Part shown: one piece after another, positions 51,958-55,836 of the stretch
How the letters are laid out: each line of letters starts with the position of its first letter
Numbering within the stretch: position 1 is the first letter of the stretch
Assembly: GCA_028293625.1 (NCBI GenBank)
Contig: JAQGOL010000036.1
Location: 62,001 to 126,000, forward strand
Source: Chthoniobacteraceae bacterium
Lineage (GTDB): Bacteria > Verrucomicrobiota > Verrucomicrobiia > Chthoniobacterales > Chthoniobacteraceae
DNA: 64,000 bases
Direction: 5' to 3'
Program-made: the position numbers and the translations under genes
The notes under the pieces: generated by a model
The model's database searches: none
Told to the model about the DNA's origin: nothing
What the model saw: the letters and a program-made list of their open reading frames with translations, nothing else

Positions 51958-53055
51958 TTAATGCTGCCCCGCCAATCCCTGCCACCCCTGCCATGCCATA
52001 TAGGCCGCCAGGATAATCAGGAGCAGGCAGGAGATGTAAGGCGCCTTTCGCATTAGCTCGCCAAACCCGGTGAATTTTTTCTCGGCATGCCGGATACTCC
52101 ACGCGGCTGCCGTACCGACCGTCACCATGGTAAGCGCCAGCCCAATGCTGAATGCGGCGACCAATGCGAATCCCAGGGTGAACTGTTTTACCTGAAGACA
52201 AACAATGAGAACCGTGAACGCCGCCGGACACGGGAGCAATCCGCCGGTTAATCCAAAAACCATGATCTGGCCTGTGGTGACTTCGCGATTGGTAAATCGT
52301 TTTTGGATGTCGAGGGCATGCGCCGCCTCATGCGCATCCTGAAACTCGCCATCGCTCATCGAGCCGTCGTGATGATGATGATCATGCTCGGCGAGCTGGG
52401 CCGAGTAATCGTGCGGCTCCCCCTTCTCAATCAGCGTGAGTTGGATCTCAAACTCGTGCGGCTCGGGAATGGTCTGGATTGATTCCAGAAAGGTCCCTTT
52501 TTTCACAAACTCGAACCTTTGCCGCGTCTGCCCGGGCCGGATCGTTTCAATACACACATCAGCCGGGCTTGGCAGGGTGCCTGCAAACGCCAGCCGAAAT
52601 ACCGGGGGTACGCCCTCTTCAAAAACGGATAGCTGCGCGGTCCCGAGAATTGTCTCTATTTTCAGAGGCTCTTCCTCGTGGGAATGATGATGATGGTTGG
52701 CTGCCGCTTTTGTATCGCGCCGGGTCCGATAAAACATCCAGACGGCGAGCACAAAGATAATCGCGGCTGAAGCGAGGTGAAAATAAGGTTCGGTGCTCTC
52801 GGCATTCCACTGGCTGCCAAAGCGCAAAGCGACTGCCGCCAACAGCCAGATAATCAGCGAGTGCGAAAACGCGGCTGACAATCCAAGCAACGCCGCCTGC
52901 GCCACAGTTCCGCGCACGGCGATGATGAAAGCCGCCATCATCGTTTTGGAATGTCCAGGCTCAAGGCCGTGCAGCGCGCCGAGCACGACGGCGGTCGGAA
53001 TAAAAAGCCAGGCGTGCGCGGTGCCTTGTTGAAGAAGATGCGTAAGATCGGTCAT
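51958..53055 (-). CDS. NicO/RcnA-type nickel/cobalt exporter
   Basis: A 365-residue membrane protein of the NicO/RcnA group. Motifs LGALHGLEPGHSKTMMAAFI and GLLPCPAAFTVLIVCL are the two conserved signatures (HGLEPGH and LLPCPAA). The two long loops are histidine-rich (HHHHSHEEE and EHDHHHHDG), consistent with metal binding. It likely effluxes Ni2+ or Co2+. The start is taken at ATG 53055 (MTDLTHLLQQG); the frame opens three codons upstream. The gene is divergent from the radical-SAM gene, with about 130 bp between them containing the LexA-like box near the other gene. Confidence 0.88.
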   Translation of the reverse strand: MTDLTHLLQQGTAHAWLFIPTAVVLGALHGLEPGHSKTMMAAFIIAVRGTVAQAALLGLSAAFSHSLIIWLLAAVALRFGSQWNAESTEPYFHLASAAIIFVLAVWMFYRTRRDTKAAANHHHHSHEEEPLKIETILGTAQLSVFEEGVPPVFRLAFAGTLPSPADVCIETIRPGQTRQRFEFVKKGTFLESIQTIPEPHEFEIQLTLIEKGEPHDYSAQLAEHDHHHHDGSMSDGEFQDAHEAAHALDIQKRFTNREVTTGQIMVFGLTGGLLPCPAAFTVLIVCLQVKQFTLGFALVAAFSIGLALTMVTVGTAAAWSIRHAEKKFTGFGELMRKAPYISCLLLIILAAYMAWQGWQGLAGQH

Positions 53056-53172
53056 CGCCCTCATCTATGGCGCGAAGTGCGCCGGGGACAAGGGGCATTC
53101 AAAGCATGGAAAACCTTTTTCATGTGAATTAAAGGCGACCCGCTCTTGTCGGCGGATGGACTTGAATTAACA

Positions 53173-53186
53173 TGTTCAATAGAACA
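53173..53186 (+). promoter_or_regulatory. LexA-type box TGTTC-N4-GAACA
   Basis: TGTTCAATAGAACA is a perfect inverted repeat of TGTTC with a 4-bp spacer. This is the motif I recall being reported for verrucomicrobial LexA. It overlaps the first base of the ATG of the radical-SAM gene, and the flanking bases extend the palindrome to CATGTTC...GAACATG. The position would block transcription of the DNA-repair operon until LexA is cleaved. Binding is inferred, not shown. Confidence 0.7.
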
Positions 53187-54433
53187 TGACGCTCGATTCG
53201 AAGCTTTCCATTCTCGCTGACGCCGCCAAATACGACGCATCGTGCGCAAGCAGCGGCACCACCAAGCGCAACTCGCGCGAGGGCGGGATCGGTTCAACCA
53301 CCGGCGCCGGGATTTGCCACAGCTACACGCCCGATGGACGTTGCGTGTCGCTTCTTAAAATTCTTCTTACCAACTATTGCATCTACGATTGTCTCTACTG
53401 CATCAACCGTGCCTCAAGCGGCGTGCAGCGCGCCCGGTTTACCGTGGAGGAAGTCGTCAATCTCACGCTCGATTTTTATCGGCGCAATTACATCGAGGGG
53501 CTTTTCCTGAGTTCGGGCATCATCCGCAATCCCGATTACACGATGGAAAGCGTGGTTGAAGTGGCCCGGCGGTTGCGGGTCGATCATGGGTTCCGCGGGT
53601 ATATCCATCTGAAAACCATCCCTGAAGCCTCTCCGGCGCTCATTGCGGAAGCGGGACGCTGGGCCGATCGGCTTAGCATCAATGTGGAGCTCGCCACCCA
53701 GCCCGATCTTGACAGGCTCGCTCCGGAGAAAAACCTTCAGCGTATCGAAACGAGCATGGGCGCCATCAAAGGGCGGATCGATGAGTTTAAAACAGAGCGG
53801 AAGAAGTTTTCCAATGCGCCTCCTTTCGCGCCTGCCGGCCAGAGCACCCAGATGATCGTCGGCGCTACCGGGGCGACTGATTCGGCCATTTTAAACCAGG
53901 CATCGCATCTCTATGGTAAACACCGGTTGCGCCGGGTTTATTACTCGGCTTTCAGCCCGATCCCCGACGCTTCAAACAAACTGCCGTTGGCGTCGCCGCC
54001 GATGGTGCGCGAACATCGGCTTTACCAGGCGGATTGGCTTTTGCGCTTTTACGGCTTTCAAGTCAGCGAACTCGCCGGGGAAACCGCGCCGAACCTTGAT
54101 CTTGCCGTCGATCCGAAGATGGCATGGGCGCTGCGCAATCCGGCGGAGTTTCCCGTGAATATCAACCGTGCGCCCCGGGAAACGCTGCTGCGGGTGCCGG
54201 GATTGGGCGTGCGCAATGTCGACCGCATCCTGGCGATCCGGCGCTGGCATCGGCTTCGCGTTGATGATCTGGTGCGATTGCGTGTTTCCCTCAAAAAGAC
54301 GCTTCCGTTTATTGAAGTAGCCGATCATCGCCCCAGCCTGATCGGGCCTGCGTTACCCGCGCCGGCTCCTTTTAAACTGAAGCAAATGGATCTGTTCGGA
54401 CCGCCGGTTTCAGTCGCCAGCGGGCAATTGTAA
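53186..54433 (+). CDS. Putative DNA-modification/repair radical SAM protein
   Basis: A 415-residue radical SAM protein. The [4Fe-4S]-binding CxxxCxxC is CIYDCLYC (C65, C69, C72). The start LDSKLSILADAAKYDASCAS and the segment GICHSYTPDGRCVSLLKILL are family-like (TIGR03916-type). A C-terminal helix-hairpin-helix region at about 327-360 (PRETLLRVPGLGVRNVDRI) indicates DNA contact. Such proteins are annotated as putative DNA modification or repair enzymes and are usually paired with UdgX. Here udgX starts 2 bp after its stop. The LexA-type box overlaps its start codon, so the operon is probably SOS-controlled. The chemistry of the family is not established. Confidence 0.88.
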   Translation: MTLDSKLSILADAAKYDASCASSGTTKRNSREGGIGSTTGAGICHSYTPDGRCVSLLKILLTNYCIYDCLYCINRASSGVQRARFTVEEVVNLTLDFYRRNYIEGLFLSSGIIRNPDYTMESVVEVARRLRVDHGFRGYIHLKTIPEASPALIAEAGRWADRLSINVELATQPDLDRLAPEKNLQRIETSMGAIKGRIDEFKTERKKFSNAPPFAPAGQSTQMIVGATGATDSAILNQASHLYGKHRLRRVYYSAFSPIPDASNKLPLASPPMVREHRLYQADWLLRFYGFQVSELAGETAPNLDLAVDPKMAWALRNPAEFPVNINRAPRETLLRVPGLGVRNVDRILAIRRWHRLRVDDLVRLRVSLKKTLPFIEVADHRPSLIGPALPAPAPFKLKQMDLFGPPVSVASGQL

Positions 54434-54435
54434 TC

Positions 54436-55836
54436 ATGATTACGCTGACCGTGCCACCCACGTTCGCCGGCTGGCGTTCCGCGGCGCGCAAGGCATTGCA
54501 AGAAGGCATCCCGCCCGGGGAGATTCTTTGGGAGGAAGCCGGCGGCGATGCGCCCTTGCTCGATCTTTTCACGCTGGAACCGGCTTTGCCTGCTTCCATC
54601 CAAAGCCCGGTCCGCGTGCCTCCGGCTTTTATGGAATTGGCCAAACGCGTCGCATGCCATCGGGCTCCCACGCGCTGGGCGATTCTCTACCGGGCGCTTT
54701 GGCGCATCACTCACGGTGAGCCGCATCTGCTCGATGTTTTTGTTGATTCCGATGTTCATCAGTTGATGGGCATGGACAAAGCGGTTCGCCGCGATGTGCA
54801 TAAGATGCGTGCCTTTGTGCGTTTCCGCGAAGTCACTCATCCTGAAGGTGTTTGGTCGGTGGCGTGGTTTGAGCCCGCGCACCTGATTGTGGAACTTAAC
54901 GCCTCGTTTTTTGTCGATCGTTTTGCCGGGATGCGCTGGTCAATCCTCACCCCTGATCGCTGCGTCCATTGGGACGGTGAGTCACTCGGTTTCTCCCCGG
55001 GAGTCGATCGTTCCGCCGCGCCGGGCGAAGACGCGGTGGAAGATCTTTGGCGCACCTATTACTCGCATATTTTCAATCCTGCCCGGGTCAAAATTCACGC
55101 GATGCAGGCCGAAATGCCCAAGCATTATTGGAAGAATCTCCCTGAAGCGGCGTTGATTCCCGATCTGCTCCGCGCCGCCCCCGGCCGTGTCGCTGAAATG
55201 CTCTCCCGCAGTCTCATCAAATCCGCGCCGGCCGAGTCCCGCGAGACAATCATTTCCGAAGTGGCTGATTGGGAATCACTTAAAGAGTCGGCATCAACAT
55301 GCCAGGCATGTCCGCTCTATAAAAACGCGACACAAACCGTCTTCGGGGAAGGCCCGCGTTCCGCCCGGATCGTCCTTCTTGGGGAACAACCCGGAGATCA
55401 GGAAGATATTCAAGGCAGACCATTTGTTGGTCCGGCCGGACAGCTCCTCGATCGAGCTCTGACAGAGGCCGGCATCGATCGCAAAGAATGTTATGTGACC
55501 AACTCCGTAAAGCATTTCAAATGGGAGCCTCGTGGCAAGCGGCGCATCCACGAAAAGCCGAACAAAACCGAGGTCAGCGCCTGCAAACCGTGGTGGAAGG
55601 CTGAATTGGCATTGGTGCGTCCAAGTGTGCTGATCTGCCTGGGAGCGACGGCCGCCCAAACGGTTTTTGATCGCGATGTCCGGGTATTGGCCGAGCGTGG
55701 AACCGTGGTTGAAACCGTTCATGCGGCAAAAACGCTGATCACCGTCCATCCTTCCTCGCTCCTGCGGATTTCGGACCCGGAGCAGCGCGAGCACGCCTAT
55801 CGCCGTTTTGTAGAAGATCTAACGCTGGTCCTTTAG
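54436..55836 (+). CDS. udgX: UdgX uracil-DNA glycosylase fused to DUF4130
   Basis: A 466-residue fusion. Residues 1 to about 250 are a DUF4130 (TIGR03915-like) domain, with AILYRALWRITHGEPHLLD, HKMRAFVRFRE and LTPDRCVHWDGE. From about 285 to the end is UdgX: GEQPGDQED (316-324), VGPAGQLLDRALTEAG, and HPSSLLR (438-444). The UdgX-specific loop KRRIH (368-372) provides His372, the residue that forms a covalent bond with abasic DNA after uracil removal in characterised UdgX. Candidate Fe-S cysteines are C289 and C292 (CQAC), C383 and C401. It follows the radical SAM gene by 2 bp, so the two are one transcription unit behind the LexA-type site. Confidence 0.93.
   Translation: MITLTVPPTFAGWRSAARKALQEGIPPGEILWEEAGGDAPLLDLFTLEPALPASIQSPVRVPPAFMELAKRVACHRAPTRWAILYRALWRITHGEPHLLDVFVDSDVHQLMGMDKAVRRDVHKMRAFVRFREVTHPEGVWSVAWFEPAHLIVELNASFFVDRFAGMRWSILTPDRCVHWDGESLGFSPGVDRSAAPGEDAVEDLWRTYYSHIFNPARVKIHAMQAEMPKHYWKNLPEAALIPDLLRAAPGRVAEMLSRSLIKSAPAESRETIISEVADWESLKESASTCQACPLYKNATQTVFGEGPRSARIVLLGEQPGDQEDIQGRPFVGPAGQLLDRALTEAGIDRKECYVTNSVKHFKWEPRGKRRIHEKPNKTEVSACKPWWKAELALVRPSVLICLGATAAQTVFDRDVRVLAERGTVVETVHAAKTLITVHPSSLLRISDPEQREHAYRRFVEDLTLVL

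Follow-up and report, generated by a model that had tools for sequence, protein, structure and literature searches.

LexA of the Verrucomicrobia reportedly binds the operator TGTTC-N4-GAACA, an assignment that Erill and colleagues are said to have made in 2016 and that we take to be the verrucomicrobial LexA consensus. Here we analyse this motif at the start of a radical SAM-UdgX operon in a 64,000-nucleotide stretch of a Chthoniobacteraceae bacterium (contig JAQGOL010000036.1; hereafter the window). In the available text of PMC8565304, SOS control of the COG1573-COG4277 uracil-DNA glycosylase operon is predicted in Bacteroidetes, with Verrucomicrobia and Alphaproteobacteria cited as further cases, and the available text of PMC7739468 includes a radical SAM protein, not further specified, among the SOS regulon members of Gram-positive bacteria and of Balneolaeota. 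On sequence comparison, the box in the window is very probably an operator for the genome's own LexA that controls the two-gene radical SAM-UdgX unit. This reading follows from the box itself, from its recurrence at lexA and at the imuA-imuB-dnaE2 cassette, and from its conservation at the operon across families of the class.

The palindrome TGTTCAATAGAACA is the sole exact TGTTCN4GAACA in the window, and its final A is the A of the ATG opening the TIGR03916 radical SAM open reading frame; an overlap with this ATG had been noted in the original prediction. This ATG is supported as the start by the TIGR03916 alignment, which begins at protein residue 4 and profile position 2. With the operator extending as far as the ATG, the transcript probably has a very short leader or none. 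Sites with at most one mismatch number two in the window against 1.67 expected from shuffles, so that within the window only the exact match is informative, and the one-mismatch sites were dropped as evidence.

Across the genome (6.83 megabases, 96.4% complete) the exact motif occurs 12 times, compared with 5 times for a control in which the pattern is read backwards. Inspection of the surroundings of all 12 sites placed seven of them over or upstream of the starts of SOS-type genes, namely lexA, the imuA-imuB-dnaE2 cassette, a GyrB/ParE-type gene, the radical SAM-UdgX operon and three integron-integrase loci. Sites with one mismatch, 133 against 88 for the reversed control among the matches listed, were not usable as evidence. 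At lexA, whose product scores 154.4 bits with TIGR00498 (cut-off 110.95), the box is exact and its final A is again the start-codon A, an overlap identical to that of the operon; at the cassette, an exact box lies at the imuA start. The DnaE2-type error-prone polymerase reaches 1094 bits against a cut-off of 939 in a frame that runs off the contig, and ImuA, at 35 bits with NF033429 (cut-off 150), owes its name partly to its place in the cassette. Upstream of the GyrB/ParE-type gene, the box stands 94 base pairs (bp) before the likely ATG; the gene fragment in this locus scores 261.5 bits, under the full-length cut-off of 740. Topoisomerase IV genes are SOS-regulated in Bacteroidetes according to the available part of PMC8565304. 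The original prediction had placed the radical SAM protein and UdgX under SOS control and had named a genome scan and the lexA, recA and imuA/dnaE2 promoters as checks: the scan, lexA and imuA agree with it, recA (discussed below) does not, and the proposed control is supported by the exact box, by lexA and imuA, and by conservation in the class.

That conservation was assessed in a sample of 288 genomes of the phylum, 27 of which encode a TIGR03916 protein over the cut-off: 16 in the class, the window included, and 11 outside it. Taking the best box within 100 bp of the start, seven of the 16 class members have no mismatch, three have one, four have two, one has three and one has four. Dinucleotide shuffles (n=300) gave means of 0.01, 0.08 and 0.87 for zero, one and two mismatches, and none of the 300 reached the observed totals. 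A box with at most two mismatches is present in 14 of these 16, in 14 of 18 once two order relatives found afterwards (G364 and G347) are added, and in 0 of 11 outside the class. These class boxes lie close to the radical SAM start, and those of the relatives G066 and G254 meet the ATG of the operon exactly as in the window. What lies downstream of the radical SAM gene is variable, a DUF4130-UdgX fusion in six of the 16 class members, DUF4130 without UdgX in another six and neither within about 1.4 kilobases in four, which indicates that it is the radical SAM gene, and not UdgX, that the box accompanies.

Named homologous loci extend the picture, and a TIGR03916 match over the cut-off is also present in Caulobacter. 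We considered the best 80 of at least 593 such loci, mostly Alphaproteobacteria by title, in the region from -150 to +10 of the start, with expectations from single-base shuffles. Exact GAACN7GAAC is found in 53 of these 80 loci (0.24 expected) and exact GTTCN7GTTC in 7 (0.14 expected), 60 together, while CTGTN8ACAG occurs in 2 (Burkholderiales, Comamonas; 0.16 expected) and GAACN4GTTC in 1 (0.18 expected). The exact verrucomicrobial motif occurs in none of the 80, and with one mismatch in three of the five rows labelled Verrucomicrobiota. GAACN7GAAC is presumably the motif of alphaproteobacterial LexA, and we likewise assume that CTGTN8ACAG is a LexA motif. One gene standing under differing LexA motifs in differing phyla cannot be explained by chance. 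The form GTTC-N7-GTTC is given as the alphaproteobacterial LexA motif in the available text of PMC8565304.

Several observations weigh against LexA control of the operon. Within 300 bp of the genome's own recA (C26:367015-367974, the sole RecA over the cut-off) there is no box, the best candidate carrying 3 mismatches, and none of 13 order relatives (L194-L206) has a recA box with at most one mismatch, three of them showing two mismatches and ten showing more. At the operon itself, the same-genus ortholog (G364) and the order relative G347 lack the box, with 3 mismatches at best, as do the class members G215 and G217 (4 and 3 mismatches, respectively). A promoter scan of 53040-53260 found no sigma-70-like consensus site. 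Finally, exact sites away from SOS-type genes number five, the same as the five of the reversed control, so that an exact site is by itself no proof.

The recA result can be set beside the rest of the class. In the 15 class relatives from other families that carry the TIGR03916 gene, the recA box is exact in 12, has one mismatch in two and two mismatches in one; with at most one mismatch it is thus present in 14 of 15 genomes from other families, against 0 of 13 in the order. For lexA, the same 15 relatives show an exact box in ten, one mismatch in three, two mismatches in one and none in one, counting the best where a genome has several LexA matches (two extra copies in G187 have no box, and one extra match in G199 was left out). 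A LexA match, weak in some cases, was found in ten of the 13 order relatives, with an exact box in two, one mismatch in three and no box in five. In the same-genus genome the lexA box is exact and overlaps the ATG in the same way, and a second, weak LexA match there lacks a box. The five order relatives with a lexA box of at most one mismatch indicate that the motif is in use in the order, and none of the five has a recA box at that threshold. These comparisons suggest that recA has dropped out of the LexA regulon in this order, with the lexA box retained in part of the order; the remaining order relatives may use another LexA motif. The regulon described here is therefore an SOS regulon without recA and not the canonical set of lexA, recA and translesion genes.

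One rival reading is a chance origin, by which the genome would hold about five functionless exact matches, one of which happened to fall on this ATG. The five sites of the reversed control speak for it, together with the two of the 12 real sites that lie inside long coding frames and the three near no recognised SOS gene. Chance does not, however, account for a start-codon position with the geometry of lexA, for the retention of the box (at most two mismatches) in 14 of 16 class orthologous promoters or for the alphaproteobacterial LexA box at 60 of the best 80 named homologues. We rejected it on the shuffle test of the orthologous promoters together with the lexA and imuA boxes, and consider it highly improbable. 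It is also hardly credible that the box serves the neighbouring divergent gene, a nickel/cobalt efflux transporter starting at 53064 (NF007454, 368 bits against 195), instead of the operon: the two share the intergenic region, yet the box is 108 bp from the exporter start and overlaps that of the operon, and the boxes of class relatives stay near the radical SAM start.

A further alternative, compatible with LexA control of the operon, is that the operon and its box were recently imported from another family and form a partly orphan operator, to which LexA binds with a weak role in the SOS response because recA is uninduced. The tree of radical SAM proteins is relevant here. It contains 44 rows, made up of the 27 phylum-sample proteins, two order relatives and 15 of the 80 named loci, the weaker TIGR03916 matches L048-L050 being left out. 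The window protein groups with G217 and G066 (family f11) and with G347, at a support of 91/83, apart from the same-genus G364, and its class relatives cluster with Verrucomicrobiota of known name, Prosthecobacter among them; the topology suggests that the radical SAM gene was transferred between families. The absence of the recA box throughout the order sample also favours this alternative. On the other side, the operon, lexA and imuA boxes are all exact, so the regulon looks alive; the release of LexA needs RecA to be activated, not recA to be induced; and the tree neighbours G217 and G347 themselves lack a good box, which leaves a joint import of operon and box without support. We regard a recent, partly orphan operator as unlikely.

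Mechanistically, control of the operon by the genome's own LexA would operate as follows. A LexA dimer lying over the promoter region and the start codon would block transcription of the two-gene unit. DNA damage would activate RecA and induce LexA self-cleavage, and the radical SAM protein and the DUF4130-UdgX fusion would then be made together with the ImuA-ImuB-DnaE2 mutasome. Covalent trapping at uracil sites is established for the UdgX family; by this chemistry, UdgX would excise uracil and stay covalently on the abasic site via the histidine of KRRIH. The radical SAM/helix-hairpin-helix protein and the DUF4130 domain would subsequently either process the adduct or repair this lesion or a related one. 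A broader reading, which we put forward tentatively and with somewhat less than even confidence, is that the SOS regulon of this order lost recA, that in this genome imuA-imuB-dnaE2, the radical SAM-DUF4130-UdgX operon and three integrase loci are under LexA, and that the operon is a roving SOS module recaptured by the LexA specificity of each host (TGTTC-N4-GAACA here, GAAC-N7-GAAC in Alphaproteobacteria, CTGT-N8-ACAG in Burkholderiales), its function tied to the products of SOS mutagenesis. One candidate function for such a module is the capture of uracil in DNA by UdgX, followed by radical repair of the resulting lesion.

The radical SAM protein belongs to a family whose model is entitled 'putative DNA modification/repair radical SAM protein', and to our knowledge no reaction is known for it. 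Its match to the Pfam Radical_SAM model is under the cut-off (27.6 bits against 29.5). Besides the cysteines of the CX3CX2C motif, C20, C44 and C53 likewise do not vary among 21 aligned proteins drawn from the class and beyond it, and may ligate another cluster, a possible second iron-sulphur site. The C-terminal region weakly resembles ComEA-type helix-hairpin-helix domains (ComE/ComEA chains at expectation values (E) of 0.054 and 0.12), and a sequence search for solved relatives returned none with E below 0.04. An AlphaFold2 model (predicted local distance difference test score 79.8) has the radical SAM fold, with residues 20-57 and 391-415 poorly modelled. It compares similarly well with many radical SAM enzymes (lipoyl synthase Z 17.8, HydE 16.9, biotin synthase 16.3), and hence the fold does not name the reaction.

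The second gene starts 2 bp past the end of the first. Its UdgX domain scores 297.4 bits with TIGR03914 (cut-off 189.95), and in addition to the first two motifs of the family its motif B reads HPSSLLR, following the pattern HPS(S/A)(L/V)(L/V)R. The available text of PMC10359453 defines GEQPG, KRRIH and motif B as the UdgX motifs and names H109 as the residue forming the bond to DNA. Coordinates of these features and of the sites elsewhere in the genome are collected in Table 1.

Table 1. Features of the operon (window positions) and exact TGTTCN4GAACA sites elsewhere in the genome (contig:position).
Feature	Position	Strand	Basis or remark
LexA operator (predicted) TGTTCAATAGAACA, palindromic	53173..53186	.	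Final base is the start-codon A; geometry shared with lexA and with the operon of relatives G066 and G254
Radical SAM protein, family TIGR03916, 415 amino acids	53186..54433	+	574.1 bits against cut-off 343.5
CX3CX2C radical SAM cluster motif (C65, C69, C72)	53378..53401	+	Sequence; no variation at the three Cys among 21 aligned proteins
DUF4130/TIGR03915 (residues 6-238) and UdgX (240-465) fusion, 466 amino acids	54436..55836	+	Profile matches
UdgX motif A, GEQPG	55381..55395	+	Motif definition in the available text of PMC10359453
UdgX nucleophile His codon, H372 in KRRIH	55549..55551	+	Alignment with the KRRIH loop of UdgX chains (E 4e-58); His conserved in all of the 6 fusion proteins compared
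Exact box, integron-integrase locus L007/L222	C29:1644-1657		
Exact box, integron-integrase locus L004/L221	C19:1249-1262		
Exact box, integron-integrase locus L009/L223	C33:39214-39227		
Exact box, GyrB/ParE-type gene (L005)	C21:73662-73675		
Exact box (L001)	C6:277273		Near an open frame of 186 amino acids, unmatched in Pfam and NCBIfam
Exact box (L011)	C41:61193		Upstream of a gene that by eye resembles a tryptophan halogenase
Exact box (L012)	C43:6526		In a stretch with no clear gene

At the three integron-integrase loci the exact box stands 11 nucleotides before the ATG, and at the third, two of the four spacer bases differ with both arms kept. Only the copy on C29 was scored by profile (434 bits against a cut-off of 265); the C19 copy, which by eye occupies more than one reading frame, and the C33 copy, which runs off its contig, were assigned through their alignable leader regions. 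Surveying intI in the class gave 52 matches, from which 30 loci were taken, the C29 copy included, 27 of them with at least 150 bases upstream. Among these 27 the exact box is found at the genome's own copy only and the others are as in shuffles, so that a LexA box at intI was rejected as a trait of the class. Searching these three integrase regions against Rfam returned one transfer RNA and nothing else. On the far side of the C29 and C19 boxes (L222 1784-2049 and L221 1389-1655) we observed a tandem array, rich in GC, whose 42-bp unit is organised into a 126-bp higher order and which can be read as a repeating open frame. By eye, a comparable frame also lies next to the C33 site.

As regards significance, the data support SOS control of a widespread operon in which the TIGR03916 radical SAM protein is the central enzyme. 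Its likely co-induction with ImuA-ImuB-DnaE2 and the LexA boxes across phyla suggest that its substrate be sought in damaged, SOS-induced cells with uracil in their DNA. Separately, the lack of a recA box in the sampled members of the order marks a change in a stress network that is otherwise conserved.

SOS control of the operon is not new: the window provides a correct further instance of a control already reported in Verrucomicrobia according to the available text of PMC8565304. In the available part of PMC10776899 neither the SOS response nor an operon is mentioned. Our literature search found nothing linking UdgX with LexA or with radical SAM proteins, and no report of the UdgX identity of the SOS-controlled gene or of the absence of the recA box in this order; its incomplete coverage makes this weak evidence of novelty.

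Compared with the closest described systems, the operon shares with the COG1573-COG4277 unit, as the available text of PMC8565304 presents it, the arrangement of two genes with a uracil-DNA glycosylase-type member under LexA-type control. It differs in that the glycosylase is here fused to DUF4130 and carries the UdgX motifs, UdgX not being named in that text. With respect to Mycobacterium smegmatis UdgX (PDB 6ail, 8iie and others), family membership is evident by sequence (E 4e-58) and from GEQPG, KRRIH and HPSSLLR, but the solved chains are single domains of 205-229 amino acids, whereas here UdgX forms the C-terminal half of a fusion protein whose gene shares an operon with a radical SAM gene. 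The family of the radical SAM gene, TIGR03916, presumably corresponds to COG4277. As for the operator described for Verrucomicrobia, the exact consensus is present at the genome's own lexA, imuA and operon, and at recA and lexA in most class relatives, in contrast with recA of this genome and of the order sample, which lacks the box. The placement also differs, since the operator lies on the ATG at the genome's own lexA and operon, while the exact lexA boxes of class relatives start 23-38 bp before the start codon.

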